43,788 nucleotides of DNA, from positions 1 through 43,788 of the forward strand of contig JANXZF010000074.1 in the NCBI GenBank assembly GCA_025355665.1. The letters run 5' to 3'. The translations under genes were made by a program, and so were the position numbers. The notes under the pieces are model-generated. The model saw nothing but the letters and a program-made list of their open reading frames with translations. It ran no database searches and was not told the DNA's origin. Within the stretch, counting starts at the first letter, position 1; each line of letters starts with the position of its first letter. This DNA is from Actinomycetes bacterium (GTDB taxonomy: Bacteria; Actinomycetota; Actinomycetes; Nanopelagicales; Nanopelagicaceae). Below, one piece after another: positions 39,256 to 43,788 of this stretch.

Positions 39256-40381
39256 TCTACCTTCCGAACACAAGGATCTCCGAGAGAGCGTTCGCGCCCT
39301 TGCACAAAACGAGATCGCACCCTTCGCTCATGATGTTGATGAGAACTCACGCTTTCCGCAAGAAGCCTACGAAGCACTCCAACGTGCAGGTCTTGCCGCA
39401 GCGCACGTGCCAACGGAATTCGGTGGAGAAGGTGCAGATGCCCTTGCAGTCGTTTTGATTGTCGAAGAAGTCGCGCGTGTTTGCGGCTCGTCATCCTTAA
39501 TTCCGGCCGTCAATAAGTTGGGTTCGCTACCTTTGATGCTGGCGGGATCGCGCGAACAGAAGGAACGCTGGCTTCGCCCACTTGCGGCCGGAAAAGGTTT
39601 CTCGTATTGCCTTTCAGAATCTGGGGCTGGTTCGGATGCAGCCGCGCTTCGCACAAAGGCCGTGAAATCAGGCGACAACTGGATTATCAGCGGCAGCAAG
39701 AAGTGGATTTCGAACGCAGGATTTTCTGACTTCTATACCGTGATGGCTGCAACAGATTCTTCCAAACGAGATAGCGGGATTTCCATTTTCGTCGTCGAGA
39801 AGAGTGATCCTGGAGTTTCCTTTGGCGCCCACGAAAAGAAGATGGGTTTTCGGGGTTCACCAACTCGCGAGGTCTATTTCGACAACGTGGAGATACCCGA
39901 TGATCGGCGAATTGGACCAGTAAATGAGGGATTTGACGTGGCGATGGAGACCCTCGATCACACACGTATAACGATTGCAGCTCAGGCTCTGGGTCTTGCA
40001 CAAGGCGCATTGGATGTGGCGAGCAAATACGCCCATGAACGCCACCAGTTCGGCAAGCCGATATTTGATTTTCAGGCAATCCAATTTATGTTGGCGGATA
40101 TGGCCATGAATATTGAAGCTGCGCGCCAATTGACCTACGCGGCAGCGGCTAAGAGTGAGCGAGGCGATTCAGATCTGAAATTCTTCGCGGCGGCATGTAA
40201 GACTTTTGCTAGTGATACCGCGATGAAAGTGACGACTGATGCAGTCCAAATCATGGGTGGCTATGGGTATGTCTCTGATTATCCAGTCGAACGAATGATG
40301 CGCGATTCCAAACTGACCCAGATTTATGAGGGCACCAATCAGATTCAACGCATCGTCATGGCAAGGAACTTGAAGCGCTAG
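39227..40381 (+). CDS. Acyl-CoA dehydrogenase
   Basis: 384-residue FAD enzyme introducing a trans-2 double bond into acyl-CoA. CLSESGAGSDAAALRTKA (substrate/FAD), WISNAGFSDFYTV, FGKPIFDFQAIQFMLADMA and the catalytic-base motif IYEGTNQIQRIVMARNL (Glu) near the end are clear. Chain length specificity (butyryl or isovaleryl, for example) is not set by sequence. Start ATG 39227 overlaps the upstream gene by 29 bases; GTG 39233 is an alternative. The CopD-CtaG link looks like position only. Confidence 0.95.
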   Translation: MKVTTEAIFDLPSEHKDLRESVRALAQNEIAPFAHDVDENSRFPQEAYEALQRAGLAAAHVPTEFGGEGADALAVVLIVEEVARVCGSSSLIPAVNKLGSLPLMLAGSREQKERWLRPLAAGKGFSYCLSESGAGSDAAALRTKAVKSGDNWIISGSKKWISNAGFSDFYTVMAATDSSKRDSGISIFVVEKSDPGVSFGAHEKKMGFRGSPTREVYFDNVEIPDDRRIGPVNEGFDVAMETLDHTRITIAAQALGLAQGALDVASKYAHERHQFGKPIFDFQAIQFMLADMAMNIEAARQLTYAAAAKSERGDSDLKFFAAACKTFASDTAMKVTTDAVQIMGGYGYVSDYPVERMMRDSKLTQIYEGTNQIQRIVMARNLKR

Positions 40382-40390
40382 TTACTTTGC

Positions 40391-40939
40391 CTATTTCACA
40401 AATCGCACGATGAGATCGGGGGTCGCTGCGGCAGCAAGTCTTACGTCATGATCTTCACGAGGTAGAAGGTCGCCCGTGATTTCTCCTGGATACACAATTC
40501 CAACTTTCCATCCTGGCATCGTCGGAAGCATTCGATCGTAATATCCGCCGCCTTGTCCGATTCGATAACCGTCTTGATCAATATGCAATGCAGGAACGAT
40601 CATTACGTCGACATCGGAGACATCAGTTCGTTCCTTGCCGATGGGTTCGAGCAATTTGCGAGTCTCTTTGAGATTTGCCATATTGCCATTCCACTCAACC
40701 CATTGAAGAGTTTTCCCTGCAACACGTGGAAGGAGCAATGTGACCCCTTGTGCTAGCAACTCGCGATTGAGTTCGAGCGTGCTGGGTTCATCGTCAATAG
40801 ATAGGTAACTTGTGACACATTTAGCGCCTTTTAATTCAGGAGCGCTTAGCAGATATACAAATGTCGCTGGGCTATACCTCTCGCGACGTTCGCGTCGATA
40901 TCGATCTCGCAACGCCTTTTTTTGGTCTGCTGTATTCAC
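40391..40939 (-). CDS. 5-formyltetrahydrofolate cyclo-ligase
   Basis: Converts 5-formyl-THF to 5,10-methenyl-THF with ATP. 182 residues, with the family signature GYRIGQGGGYYDRML (about residues 123-137) and N-terminal KKALRDRYRRERRE. GTG 40939 has AGGGG upstream; a good -10 (GATAAT, 40955-40960, minus strand) lies close by. In mycobacteria and relatives this gene flanks galU, moeA and rimJ; here galU is missing and it faces the MoeA-like gene directly. Confidence 0.93.
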   Translation of the reverse strand: MNTADQKKALRDRYRRERRERYSPATFVYLLSAPELKGAKCVTSYLSIDDEPSTLELNRELLAQGVTLLLPRVAGKTLQWVEWNGNMANLKETRKLLEPIGKERTDVSDVDVMIVPALHIDQDGYRIGQGGGYYDRMLPTMPGWKVGIVYPGEITGDLLPREDHDVRLAAAATPDLIVRFVK

Positions 40940-40954
40940 TGAAATCCCCTAGAA

Positions 40955-40976
40955 ATTATCGATAAGCAAGTATGGT
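40955..40976. promoter_or_regulatory. Divergent promoters of the cyclo-ligase and MoeA-like genes
   Basis: GATAAT on the minus strand (40955-40960) serves the cyclo-ligase gene; TATGGT on the plus strand (40971-40976) lies at -12 to -7 from ATG 40983 and gives a leaderless transcript for the MoeA-like gene. Only 43 bases separate the two start codons. Confidence 0.55.
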
Positions 40977-40982
40977 GGGAGT

Positions 40983-41894
40983 ATGTCAGAGCAAGTTCGG
41001 GTAGATGAGTTTCTGACCGCTCTTTTATCCATTTCCAGCCCCCTCGAACCGTTTGCAATGCCGCTGCTTGACGCGCATGGTGCAACTTTGGCAGAGGATG
41101 TTTATGTCGGAGAGCGCCTGGTCATGAAGTCGGGTTCGCGGATTCGATCTACTCAGATTGGATTGGCCGCATCCATCGGTCTCAAGGCACTTCCGACAAG
41201 ACCTCACCCTCGAGTCGTTGTCATTTCCGCTGGGCCGGATCTCGTCGAACCCGGTGAGCATCTTTCTCCCGGCGAGGAGTACGAAACTAATTCGTGGTTG
41301 CTTACGACTTCGGTTCGCGAAGCAGGGGCCGTCGGATATCGTGTTTTCTCAATTCCAGATGATGAGGCACAACTCAAGGCGTTGGTTGAAGATCAGTTGG
41401 TTCGCGCTGATCTCGTTGTCGTAAGCGGTGAGCGAAGGGATGAATCCTTCGACCTCATCACTCGCGCATTGAGTTCCTTGGGCGAGATAACCACCGTCGA
41501 CCTAGCCATCGAATCCAGCGGTCGCCATAACTACGGCCTCATCGGACCCGATCGAATTCCCGTGGTGACCCTTCCTGGAGATCCCATCGCGGCCTACATT
41601 TCCCTCGAACTCTTCGTGAGACCGATGATTAGAACCATGCTCGGATCATCAAATATTCACCGCCCATCGGTAAAAGCACGCCTAGAGAGGCCAATTGGCT
41701 CTGCCCATGGGGCTCGAACTTATCTAAGGGCCTTCCTTTCCGAGGACGGCCAATCGGTTCGCGCACTTCCGGATCAAGAAGATTTGGTGACATTGTCGGA
41801 TGCAAATGCGCTCATTGCAGTTCCTGAATCAGAAGTTGGCTTGGAAGCGGGTGCAGAGGTTACGGTAGTCGTACTTCGACGCCGATATTTTTAG
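40983..41894 (+). CDS. glp: MoeA/gephyrin-like protein (Glp type), lid domain missing
   Basis: 303 residues; MoeA proteins have about 400. The N-terminal AHGATLAEDVYVGE corresponds to MoeA's start, but the chain jumps at residues 44-50 to GSRIRSTQIGLAASIGL, so the roughly 90-residue lid domain with the MDGYA motif is absent. The molybdopterin-binding domain remains (RPHPRVVVISAGPDLVEPGEHL; LPGDPIAAYISLELFVRP at 197-214) although the usual GGVSVGxxD loop is VSGERRDESFD (147-157). C-terminal domain IV is kept. Enzymatic molybdate insertion therefore looks doubtful. With RimJ and a GlpR-like membrane protein behind, it matches the division-linked Glp cassette of corynebacteria. Leaderless promoter at 40971-40976. 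Confidence 0.8.
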   Translation: MSEQVRVDEFLTALLSISSPLEPFAMPLLDAHGATLAEDVYVGERLVMKSGSRIRSTQIGLAASIGLKALPTRPHPRVVVISAGPDLVEPGEHLSPGEEYETNSWLLTTSVREAGAVGYRVFSIPDDEAQLKALVEDQLVRADLVVVSGERRDESFDLITRALSSLGEITTVDLAIESSGRHNYGLIGPDRIPVVTLPGDPIAAYISLELFVRPMIRTMLGSSNIHRPSVKARLERPIGSAHGARTYLRAFLSEDGQSVRALPDQEDLVTLSDANALIAVPESEVGLEAGAEVTVVVLRRRYF

Positions 41895-41902
41895 GTAGGT
41901 CC

Positions 41903-42478
41903 ATGAATAACGCGAGATGGCCGCTAGTTCTCATATCAAACGGGGTGACATTGAGGCCGCTTCGACTTCGCGATCGTGCAAAGTGGGATGAAGTTCGCGC
42001 GGCGAATCGCGATTGGCTGGCTCCTTGGGAGGCAACTAGGCCAATCGTTCCGGGAGATGACTCAGATAAAGAACTCCCGTCCTACTTTCAGATGGTTGCC
42101 TCTCATAATCGCGAAGGCCGTGCCAAGAGATCTCTGAGTCTGTCGATCTGGTTTGAAAATTCTTTGGTCGGCCAGATAACAATGGGCGGGATTGTGATGG
42201 GGGCGCTTCGAGGTGCACATATTGGATATTGGGTTGATAAGAGATATGCGAATAGGGGCATTACTACTCAGGCGGTCCAGATGCTGACCGAATATGGATT
42301 TGAGGAATTGGGACTTCATCGGATTGAAATAAATCTTCGCCCAGAAAATGCGGCATCTCGTCGAGTCGCTGAGAAAGCTGGCTATCACCTTGAAGGCGAG
42401 CGACCCAGATTTCTCCATATAGATGGGCAATGGCGCGATCATCTGAGTTTCGTCAGAGAAAATCCAAAAATTATTTAG
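41903..42478 (+). CDS. rimJ: GNAT family N-acetyltransferase, RimJ/RimL type
   Basis: 191-residue acetyl-CoA-dependent acetyltransferase, homologous to ribosomal-protein alanine N-acetyltransferases. TLRPLRLRDRAKWDEVRAANRDWLAPWEATRP at the N-terminus, GAHIGYWVDKRYANRGITTQAVQMLTEYGFEELGLHRIEI and NAASRRVAEKAGYHLEGERPRFLHIDGQWRDH are the RimJ signature with the R/Q-x-x-G/A acetyl-CoA loop. It begins 8 bases after the MoeA-like gene with TAGGT before the ATG, and forms the middle of the glp-rimJ-membrane-protein unit. Its substrate may be ribosomal S5 or a division protein; unknown. Confidence 0.92.
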   Translation: MNNARWPLVLISNGVTLRPLRLRDRAKWDEVRAANRDWLAPWEATRPIVPGDDSDKELPSYFQMVASHNREGRAKRSLSLSIWFENSLVGQITMGGIVMGALRGAHIGYWVDKRYANRGITTQAVQMLTEYGFEELGLHRIEINLRPENAASRRVAEKAGYHLEGERPRFLHIDGQWRDHLSFVRENPKII

Positions 42479-42559
42479 TCGGTCCTTTACAGAAAAATGG
42501 GGCAAATTGCCCATCTAAATACCCGAAAGATGATAGTCCTGCCTCTATCTTTAAGCATC

Positions 42560-43336
42560 ATGGCCTCAGGAATTATCTATCTCTCCATCGTCGGGATGTG
42601 GGTTGCCTATTTTGTGCCTCGTTGGGTTCATAGTCATGATGAGTTATCCGGAAAATCGGTAGAGCGCTACAAGAGCGCGATGAGAATTGTTACTAGTACG
42701 TCGGGTGAGGATTCCATGAGTTCAGGACCAATGCACACAGATCTCGACAGCGAGTCGAAAATCGCGCAAGTGTTGATGAGACGCCGAATTGTTTTTGCGA
42801 TCATCATTCTCGGTCTTCTCGCAACGTCCCTTGAAATTGCACTCAAAGCGATTTCATTTGTGTATTTGGCAGTGCCGGCTGTCGCGCTAATTGCTTATGT
42901 CGCTCACGTTCGTCGACAGAGTGTTGCCGATAGGTTGCAGCGTCGTCGCGTTTCTCAATTGCATCGAACTACTGCGGGAGTATCGACTACCAATCTTTCA
43001 CCAGTCTTCACTCCTAAAGAATCTCGAGAACATTGGGTCCCACTTGCAGATCGTGAATTAACTGGCGTAGTTATAGTTCCAAAAGGAACAGCCGAACTTC
43101 GCAATTCATGGCAGCCAAATAGCGTCCCGGTTCCAACGTATGTAAATGCCCCCAAAGCCGTTGTCCCTAAGCGTGTTATTGACCTCACTGTTCCTGGTGC
43201 CTGGAGCGAAGAGCAGGAACGCCTTGCAAATGAGGCCCTTTCAGCCGTTGCACCTACCCGCGATCAAGTTTTCGATCAACAACTTGCCGAGGAAGCAGTC
43301 GAACGCCTCCGTCAAAACCGAGCGGCCAACGAGTAA
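42560..43336 (+). CDS. GlpR-like membrane protein (receptor of the gephyrin-like protein)
   Basis: About 258 residues from ATG 42560. An N-terminal helix (MASGIIYLSIVGMWVAYFVP followed by RWVHSHDE) matches the usual start of the actinobacterial family that follows rimJ; a second helical pair is at RRRIVFAIIILGLLATSLE and AISFVYLAVPAVALIAYVAHV. The cytoplasmic C-terminus ends with a conserved WQPNSVPVPTYVNAPKA segment and an acidic helix with an arginine end. From corynebacterial work, GlpR anchors Glp at the division site; the assignment here is by order and architecture. ATG 42497 would add 21 unconserved residues; TATCTT at 42546-42551 supports a near-leaderless 42560 start. Confidence 0.75.
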   Translation: MASGIIYLSIVGMWVAYFVPRWVHSHDELSGKSVERYKSAMRIVTSTSGEDSMSSGPMHTDLDSESKIAQVLMRRRIVFAIIILGLLATSLEIALKAISFVYLAVPAVALIAYVAHVRRQSVADRLQRRRVSQLHRTTAGVSTTNLSPVFTPKESREHWVPLADRELTGVVIVPKGTAELRNSWQPNSVPVPTYVNAPKAVVPKRVIDLTVPGAWSEEQERLANEALSAVAPTRDQVFDQQLAEEAVERLRQNRAANE

Positions 43337-43362
43337 TTCCTTGTTTTAGCCTCGGGTGATAA

Positions 43363-43382
43363 CCTCACCTGTACCCGTGAGG
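43363..43382 (+). terminator. Weak hairpin after the GlpR-like gene
   Basis: CCTCAC (43363-43368) pairs with GTGAGG (43377-43382) over an 8-base loop, 25 bases before tRNA-Ala. It has no T-run, so its role as a terminator is uncertain. Confidence 0.35.
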
Positions 43383-43406
43383 AGGCCAGTACTCGCAAGA
43401 AAGCTA

Positions 43407-43482
43407 GGGGCTGTAGCGCAGTTGGTAGCGCGTCTCGTTCGCAATGAGAAGGTCAGGGGTTCGATTCCCCTCAGCTCCACCA
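43407..43482 (+). tRNA. tRNA-Ala (anticodon CGC)
   Basis: Acceptor GGGGCTG/CAGCTCC, D arm GCGC/GCGC, anticodon loop TTCGCAA with anticodon CGC on stem TCTCG/TGAGA (one G-T pair), T arm AGGGG-TTCGATT-CCCCT, and an encoded ACCA end (43479-43482). The next base starts the TGTG end of an IS-like element. Confidence 0.95.
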
Positions 43483-43487
43483 TGTGA

Positions 43488-43530
43488 TGTGTCGAGTCAT
43501 AGGTCTCTCCTGTGGCGAGTCATAGGTCTC
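43488..43530. repeat. Tandem 20-bp repeats near the IS end
   Basis: TGTGTCGAGTCATAGGTCTC (43488-43507) and TGTGGCGAGTCATAGGTCTC (43511-43530) differ at one base and are separated by TCC (23-bp period). They lie between the tRNA and the transposase stop, where transposase binding sites are expected. Confidence 0.85.
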
Positions 43531-43535
43531 ACTAT

Positions 43536-43788
43536 TCATTTCGCCTTTCTTGATTTTTTTGTTTCTTCATCGATCAATATGTTGGTCCAGAAGCTTCGTC
43601 CGGGTTGGATCTCATGTCGGGAGAGAACTTCACCAGTCTTCTTCTCGACGACGGTAACTTTGAAGTGATCAACGATCATGAGGACGACTTTGTGACCGTG
43701 GTGGATTCCAACGCCGAGATGGTGCATCTTGCCTGCCCTGCGCAATGAAAGTTTGCCGAATTGATCAACGCGGTCATTGCGCACTCGG
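43536..43788 (-). CDS. IS481 family transposase, C-terminal fragment (continues beyond window)
   Basis: The frame is open to the window edge on the minus strand and ends at 43536. The visible end, RVRNDRVDQFGKLSLRRAGKMHHLGVG then VVEKKTGEVLSRHEIQPGRSF, is the C-terminal tail common to IS481 DDE transposases (RVRHDRVDKxGRVSLRH-like, recollected). The DDE catalytic core would be upstream, outside the window. The ATG/GTG within the fragment is not a true start. Integrity of the whole gene cannot be judged. Confidence 0.8.
   Translation of the reverse strand, partial: RVRNDRVDQFGKLSLRRAGKMHHLGVGIHHGHKVVLMIVDHFKVTVVEKKTGEVLSRHEIQPGRSFWTNILIDEETKKSRKAK

Follow-up and report, generated by a model that had tools for sequence, protein, structure and literature searches.

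The contig JANXZF010000074.1 of a Nanopelagicaceae actinomycete (GenBank assembly GCA_025355665.1; 43,788 nucleotides, taken whole and called the window here) carries near one end the gene glp, whose 303-residue product is a Glp orthologue with domain II, the lid of MoeA-like proteins, cleanly missing, and no ordinary MoeA. Together with the membrane protein GlpR encoded downstream, it is a nearly order-wide variant of the known Glp-GlpR system, and the lid-less group to which it belongs corresponds to the acI lineage of freshwater actinobacteria (Ca. Nanopelagicales). Our overall reading, which we regard as the most likely one, is that lid-less Glp has no part in molybdenum cofactor (Moco) synthesis and would serve as a small dimeric scaffold paired with GlpR at the Z-ring, a state reached after repeated loss of the lid.

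Loss of domain II in a Glp orthologue

Pfam places MoCF_biosynth (domain III) at residues 91-217 of the protein and MoeA_C (domain IV) at residues 231-298, and of MoeA_N it recovers the last 22 positions only (139-160), under the Pfam cut-off. The NCBIfam model Glp_gephyrin NF045515 is matched with an E-value of 2.6e-78 and 263.6 bits over model positions 145-403 only; this score stays under the cut-off of the model (475 bits), and with domain II absent the protein does not have the four-domain (I-IV) architecture of Glp. When aligned to C. glutamicum Glp (chain 8bve), residue 42 corresponds to residue 39 and G43 to residue 152, residues 40-151 being missing; the published domain II of the corynebacterial protein spans residues 46-145 (PMC10522489, here and below as far as the partial text goes). 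The N-terminal part of this alignment is weak (-1.9 bits) and was placed by eye and with a second alignment, and the strong match restarts at G43. A first-pass annotation of the DNA had described a MoeA-like chain of 303 residues without the lid domain and its MDGYA motif, which Pfam, NCBIfam and the alignment all confirm; the jump that it had set at residues 44-50 has to be moved to the V42|G43 junction. Direct reading likewise upholds the decay that it had seen in two motifs, the GGVSVGxxD loop having become VSGERRDESFD and PGNP having become PGDP. None of the features of a MoeA molybdotransferase (lid with MDGYA, GGVS, PGNP) is thus present.

The affiliation to Glp is also seen at the level of the fold. 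An AlphaFold2 (AF2) monomer model, built from an alignment of the window protein with 51 of 80 loci (themselves the best 80 of 543 confirmed), reached a predicted local distance difference test score of 88.6 and a predicted template-modelling score of 0.88. Used as a Foldseek query, this model retrieved C. glutamicum Glp (8bvf/8bve) on top, with E-values of 3e-29 to 3e-28 and query template-modelling scores of 0.81-0.83, followed by MoeA, Cnx1E and gephyrin E entries, so that C. glutamicum Glp is the best solved-structure match by sequence as well as by fold. In trees the window protein belongs to the Glp clade, set apart from enzymatic MoeA, and its gene has the rimJ-glpR neighbours of the Glp locus.

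Conserved surfaces and division partners

A role of the lid-less Glp in cell division is likely, to judge from orthology and synteny. The wiring would probably be different from that of C. glutamicum, since the FtsZ loop is changed and Wag31/DivIVA was not found. The parts of the protein have been conserved to very different degrees. Among 20 lid-less rows, the mean pairwise identity is 0.99 over the EDQLVRAD motif, 0.81 and 0.85 over the two proline-rich hinges, which lie between domains I and III as expected for a Glp, and 0.61 over domain III; it drops to 0.35 in domain IV, the least conserved domain, and to 0.29 over the stretch equivalent to the FtsZ-binding strand and loop. The corresponding values for 15 lidded rows of the Glp clade, a set of different relatedness in which seven rows (f14, f24, f19, f6, f30) entered without inspection of their loci, are 0.92, 0.62 and 0.75, 0.74, 0.52 and 0.45. 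Residues D137, Q138 and R141 are invariant in the 39 proteins of glp-rimJ-glpR loci, whatever the state of the lid; in 19 other MoeA proteins, Q138 is found in one, D137 in four and R141 in four. P74, within the second hinge, behaves in the same way (39/39 versus 3/19). This comparison set includes 12 of 14 MoeA loci taken from the order (L048 and L050 yielded no ORF passing the motif filter) and one partial open reading frame (ORF) of 335 residues. C. glutamicum Glp reads ESQMLRSE at the motif, retaining Gln246 and Arg249, not the Asp; EDQLVRAD is a conserved surface that the Glp literature found here, in the portions available, does not discuss.

The GlpR of the window, encoded beside glp-rimJ, has three predicted transmembrane segments, a loop on the cytoplasmic side and a tail at the C-terminus. 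Its true start is likely the ATG at 42560, as indicated by hydropathy and by a Planktophila orthologue beginning MASGIIYL. Hydropathy assigns three segments to six of nine GlpRs, including that of the window, and two to the other three; no solved structure matched GlpR by sequence up to an E-value of 1. FtsZ was found in 24 of the 25 genomes searched and SepF in 16 of 17 Nanopelagicales genomes. The FtsZ of the genome that holds the window ends in EDEIDVPDFMK, and that of the lidded genera described below in DDLDVPDFLK or DELDVPDFLK. Across the FtsZ C-termini collected (L227-L250), (D/E)LD(V/I)PDFLK gives way within the lid-less clade to PDFM(K/R) endings, mostly EDEID(V/I)PDFM(K/R); FtsZ of the lid-less genera g9 and g12 still ends in PDFLK.

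Five ftsZ clusters (own genome, G013, G091, G037, G024) read ftsZ-pgeF-yggS-sepF-yggT-ileS. YggT, SepF and DivIVA were tested by search, and pgeF, yggS and ileS are presumably what their position and look suggest. The divIVA slot, that is, the stretch between yggT and the gene after it (L307 on contig C40 of the own genome, L308, L309, L310, L312), is empty in all five; G406 has divIVA there. It may be that the acI lineage has no DivIVA scaffold for polar growth at all. The target of GlpR in C. glutamicum is Wag31 (PMC10522489); this output cannot apply in Nanopelagicales, because no DivIVA was found there, and in 17 genomes GlpR thus has no known partner of this kind to bind.

Several of the observations weigh against the proposed scaffold at the Z-ring. 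Besides the low identity of domain IV and of the loop counterpart, the FtsZ-contacting tyrosine is present in 12 of 15 lidded rows versus 0 of 20 lid-less ones, and the loop, bounded in Corynebacteriales by Met361 and Tyr369, has Ser in place of Met, lacks the Tyr, and is shorter and variable. In C. glutamicum, Glp from which this loop has been deleted binds neither FtsZ nor GlpR (PMC10522489). On the partner side, the window GlpR scores under the cut-off of the NCBIfam SepX_GlpR model (104.5 versus 150 bits), its first loop measures 60 residues by hydropathy versus about 190 in C. glutamicum, and the charge pattern of C. glutamicum GlpR, with an acidic loop and a basic tail, is not general among the nine GlpRs: the window protein has it (isoelectric points of 5.8 for the loop and 9.8 for the tail), the other eight have a basic first loop, and the tail is acidic in three (basic in 6/9 overall). 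Finally, Pfam detected DivIVA/Wag31 in 0 of 17 Nanopelagicales genomes versus 4 of 5 outside the order. With the contact tyrosine kept in none of the 20 lid-less rows, the sequences speak against a simple carry-over of the C. glutamicum FtsZ contact; the argument from the loop is tempered by the crystal structure, in which half of the FtsZ peptide is held by main-chain bonds (PMC10522489).

These points open the way to a rival reading that deserves serious, if tentative, consideration. According to it, lid-less Glp would not bind FtsZ through the domain IV loop, its partner being GlpR or another protein reached through the face formed by hinge and EDQLVRAD, and its division role would be indirect or rewired. 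The steep difference in conservation between that face and the FtsZ loop, the invariance of D137, Q138 and R141 in Glp-locus proteins together with the rarity of Q138 in other MoeA, and the failure to find DivIVA in the order all favour it. Against it, four of the seven named pocket positions remain hydrophobic in the 8bve alignment, and the FtsZ C-terminal peptide is conserved, although other partners also read this peptide.

Repeated loss of the lid

The order, as sampled, comprises one family, 17 genera and 296 genomes. The cut-off of NF045515 is exceeded in only 4/296 of them, and all four proteins are lidded (G024, G038 and G049 of genus g5, G033 of genus g14); a further g5 genome, G060, has a contig-edge piece carrying the lid domain. 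The lidded Glps retain MDGFA or MDGYG, GGVS and PGNP (three of the four were aligned), and their genomes have one MoeA_N protein each, with moaC directly downstream of glp. At L060, L074, L260 and L070 (g5, g14), the motif-intact lidded Glp is the sole lid-bearing MoeA homologue found, and moaC follows. These bacterial proteins are candidates for a double role, in Moco synthesis and in division. Elsewhere in the actinomycetes, six loci (G395, G337, G370, G356, G346, G303) show the order cyclo-ligase / galU / glp / moaC / moaB / rimJ / glpR, galU being detected in five of them and glpR by BLAST in G337, G370, G303 and G346 and by motif in G395 and G356. From this arrangement, and from moaC after glp in g5 and g14, it follows that glp most likely lay ancestrally within a Moco cluster. 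The f25 protein at L302 (G319), also from a Glp locus, has degraded lid motifs and matches positions 3-334 of the 403 of the Glp model, domain IV being unreached.

Lid-less Glps are also found outside the order, in family f34 (genus g81: G406, G436, G477, G471 and others) and family f33 (genus g90: G441, G455), where they likewise precede rimJ-glpR. At about 4824-5672 of L298 (G449, f34, genus g95), between galU and rimJ-glpR, lies an ORF that resembles a lid-less Glp but is highly diverged, scoring 37.9 bits with the Glp model. A maximum-likelihood tree of 44 rows, with the lid columns removed, needs three losses. By the approximately unbiased (AU) test on this tree, a single lid-less clade is rejected (p 0.0005), as is the union of Nanopelagicales with f34 (p 0.002); on a 43-row tree, also without lid columns, Nanopelagicales with G406 is rejected (p 0.004). 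The 43-row tree pairs lid-less G406 as sister with a lidded member of its family, G414 (99/94). In the 44-row tree, the f34 rows with and without lid are separated, in a part without resolution, and a long branch next to the lidded f5 carries the lid-less rows of f33 (90/93). All trees were computed without the two f25 rows, and the 43- and 44-row trees also without the MoeA of the own genome. The 44-row tree drops 12 rows (Nanopelagicales G043, G025, G030, G041, G032, G002, G021 and G051; others G340, G347, G303 and G356) and adds 13, and its root set falls on no single side of any branch, one row being misplaced.

There are therefore at least two independent losses in the Actinomycetes, and three on the best tree. 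The third loss, in f33, is not secured, since neither Nanopelagicales with f33 (p 0.074) nor f33 with f34 (p 0.36) is rejected, and in an earlier tree, computed with the lid columns included, a single loss for the G406 row withstood the AU test (p 0.066); both results count against our reading. They also belong, with the nearly identical position of the lid-less junctions in the 44-row alignment and the capacity of long branches to mislead, to the case for one ancient loss common to all lid-less lineages. This scenario is improbable: it would require regains of the lid, the lidded genera g5 and g14 fall with the order in the trees, lidded relatives of f34 and f33 exist, and the single lid-less clade, Nanopelagicales with f34 and Nanopelagicales with G406 are all rejected (see above). 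The main explanation rests on repeated loss and is unaffected by the choice between two losses and three.

Among the loci inspected, lid-less proteins are restricted to those without moaC-moaB. In the 41 loci tabulated, both genes are absent from 26/26 lid-less ones; of the 15 lidded ones, 10 have moaC (the tenth stopping at a contig edge), nine have moaB and five have neither. A BLAST recount of both genes agrees with the table. Fisher's test gives p 2.7e-6 and treats related loci as independent, and we draw no proof from this value. The pair rimJ and glpR follows glp in all 26 lid-less loci.

Independence from the molybdenum cofactor

The own genome carries, on contig C6, a cluster with moaA, moaE, moaB, moaC, a 389-residue MoeA, a MobA-like gene, modA and modB, several of them scoring under NCBIfam cut-offs. 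The concern that no second full-length moeA might exist, which would have left the pathway dependent on glp, is thus removed by a separate MoeA within a moaA-moaE-moaB-moaC-moeA-mobA cluster. Any MoeA_N domain at all is detected in 28 of 83 high-quality genomes; the remaining 55 include G007, a genome with a Glp fragment, which leaves 54 genomes with a lid-less Glp and with no lid-bearing MoeA found. MoaC was searched in 41 chosen genomes, mostly the more complete ones, and its presence coincides, in all 40 Nanopelagicales genomes compared (14 with, 26 without), with that of a lidded Glp or a separate MoeA; 14 of the 26 without MoaC are one-contig genomes. A survey of four acI strains found the Moco pathway in A7 only (PMC5301498, partial text), which agrees with this distribution of MoaC.

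Since genomes without MoaC or any lid-bearing MoeA still keep the lid-less Glp, its freedom from molybdenum chemistry, already proposed in the first-pass annotation, is strongly supported. That it still takes part in Moco synthesis, or binds molybdopterin, in some reduced way is very unlikely. Domain III is a molybdopterin-binding fold, PGDP remains and the pathway is present in the own genome; set against this are the loss of the MDGYA lid and the GGVS loop, the full-length MoeA in the same genome, and the retention of the protein in the 26 genomes without MoaC.

Distribution and selection

The lid-less protein extends over residues 1-303, without internal stops, in 20 of 21 genomes from the genus; G007, the remaining genome, shows just its Glp-like fragment, at a contig edge. 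A Glp match is found in 143/151 genomes of the family, a count that takes in lidded Glps, a few fragments and a weak match in G060, and in 82/83 high-quality ones, three of the 82 being lidded. A copy at 99% identity occurs in another genome (L116), and the lid-less form is also encoded by two complete genomes, Ca. Planktophila versatilis MMS-IA-79 and IMCC19121 (the latter is, we take it, the acI strain A7). The gene is under purifying selection, with ratios of nonsynonymous to synonymous divergence (dN/dS) of 0.023 for G008, 0.047 for G010 and 0.045 for G013 (dS 0.40, 1.60 and 2.45), the last two being rough at dS > 1.5; G012 and G006 were saturated. Viral contigs, searched with the window Glp as query, gave no relative. 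The draft state of the genome (138 contigs) might suggest an assembly deletion, a frameshift or a decaying pseudogene, an idea with practically nothing left to it given the equivalent proteins in 20 of 21 genus genomes, in L116 and in two complete genomes, the low dN/dS, and relatives, close and distant alike, that lack the lid too.

The locus and its neighbours

Pfam and NCBIfam matches (Table 1) bear out the gene order cyclo-ligase / MoeA-like / rimJ / membrane protein that the first-pass annotation had claimed. The cyclo-ligase gene, divergent and separated from glp by 43 bases, is found at the equivalent position in most relatives inspected. The locus in the window lacks both galU, which in the wider actinomycete locus lies in the cyclo-ligase/glp gap, and moaC-moaB, which lie in the glp/rimJ gap. 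A pattern scan of 40300-43500 for sigma-70 promoters gave zero matches, a result of little weight. Downstream of the tRNA gene, at about 43493-43784, the window has two copies of the short repeat cgagtcataggtctc and an 82-residue ORF that reaches the contig end and has no Pfam match; a mobile element may have its edge here.

Table 1. Features of the glp locus, in window coordinates
Feature	Coordinates	Strand	Evidence
5-formyltetrahydrofolate cyclo-ligase; divergent neighbour, marker of the conserved locus	40391..40939	-	TIGR02727, 9.7e-36
glp, lid-less Glp (MoeA/gephyrin-E homologue; domains I, III, IV)	40983..41894 (stop codon included)	+	303-residue ORF; NF045515, AF2 model, PDB matches
Proline-rich hinge 1, residues 20-36 (delimited here)	41040..41090	+	Glp signature of PMC10522489 (partial text); identity 0.81
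Excision junction, codons V42|G43, expected place of domain II	41106..41111	+	Alignments
Proline-rich hinge 2, residues 70-84, PTRPHPR (delimited here)	41190..41234	+	P74
EDQLVRAD motif, residues 136-143, Glp-locus signature, end of helix 128-138	41388..41411	+	Alignment; helix from AF2 model
Degraded GGVS active-site loop, residues 148-156	41424..41450	+	Direct reading; lidded g5/g14 retain GGVS
PGDP (PGNP in MoeA), residues 198-201	41574..41585	+	Direct reading
Shortened counterpart of FtsZ-binding hairpin loop, without the equivalent of Tyr369, residues 252-259	41736..41759	+	Alignments
rimJ-like GNAT acetyltransferase	41903..42478	+	Acetyltransf_3 4.4e-20 (Pfam); PRK10809 9.4e-19, under its own cut-off
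glpR/sepX homologue, three predicted transmembrane segments	42497..43336	+	NF050099 SepX_GlpR_2, 8.7e-30, 104.5 bits (cut-off 150); hydropathy; synteny
tRNA-Ala (CGC), 3' of glpR	43407..43482	+	ARAGORN

Comparison with known systems and proposed origin

The closest known system, C. glutamicum Glp-GlpR (Cgl0883/Cgl0885; PDB 8bve, 8bvf; PMC10522489), shares with that of acI the rimJ and glpR locus, the proline hinges, the three-segment partner, the conserved FtsZ C-terminal peptide and the fold of domains I, III and IV. It differs in having domain II, the active-site motifs and an FtsZ loop of full length with its tyrosine; conversely, the acI GlpR has a short first loop, DivIVA/Wag31 was not found in acI and the Moco pathway is often missing there. 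Streptomyces SepX (PMC8748795, partial text; NCBIfam SepX_GlpR) has three transmembrane segments and a similar N-terminal transmembrane stretch, but its sequence identity to the window GlpR is low. SepX has DynB as a partner. MoeA (E. coli 1g8l, and the MoeA on C6) has a common ancestry with the window Glp and the same domains I, III and IV; unlike MoeA, the latter is without lid, MDGYA and GGVS, and the EDQLVRAD helix is typical of Glp-locus proteins. The gephyrin E domain offers an analogy, in that a MoeA fold serves there as scaffold beneath a receptor in the membrane, although gephyrin keeps lid and catalysis and has its receptor site elsewhere in domain IV (PMC10522489). Among the literature matches listed, supplements aside and as far as the partial texts go, there is no report of lid loss in Glp, of any Nanopelagicales Glp or of a missing DivIVA in this order.

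As to how the lid-less form arose, the ancestral glp would have been part of a galU-glp-moaC-moaB-rimJ-glpR cluster, and the lidded Glp of two genera may still serve Moco synthesis. In the other lineages moaC-moaB would have left the cluster, Moco being either lost or supplied by a separate moeA cluster, as in the genome of the window. Selection on catalysis would then have ended, the active-site loops would have decayed and the lid would have been cut out, on two occasions at least and on three according to the best tree. Excision after decay is suggested by lidded f5 and by G414 of f34, in which the active site has decayed with the lid still present, fitting this order of events. The remaining core, composed of domains I, III and IV, the proline hinges and the EDQLVRAD helix, would act as a small scaffold, dimeric and paired with GlpR at the Z-ring, in the company of FtsZ and SepF and in the absence of DivIVA/Wag31. 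The original proposal of a reduced Glp system linked to FtsZ thus fits in its "reduced version" part; the "division cassette" is best kept as a probable function, and the corynebacterial wiring does not simply carry over.

More tentatively, the Glp-GlpR pair of Nanopelagicales could be a rewired scaffold that needs neither Moco nor domain II, DivIVA/Wag31 or the FtsZ-loop contact. Hinge and EDQLVRAD would then be the ancestral interface, and the lidded Glps of g5 and g14 moonlighting gephyrins doing both jobs. Lid-less Glp separates a conserved role from the enzyme, and suggests that the conserved job of the protein, probably in cell division, is independent of domain II and of the cofactor.

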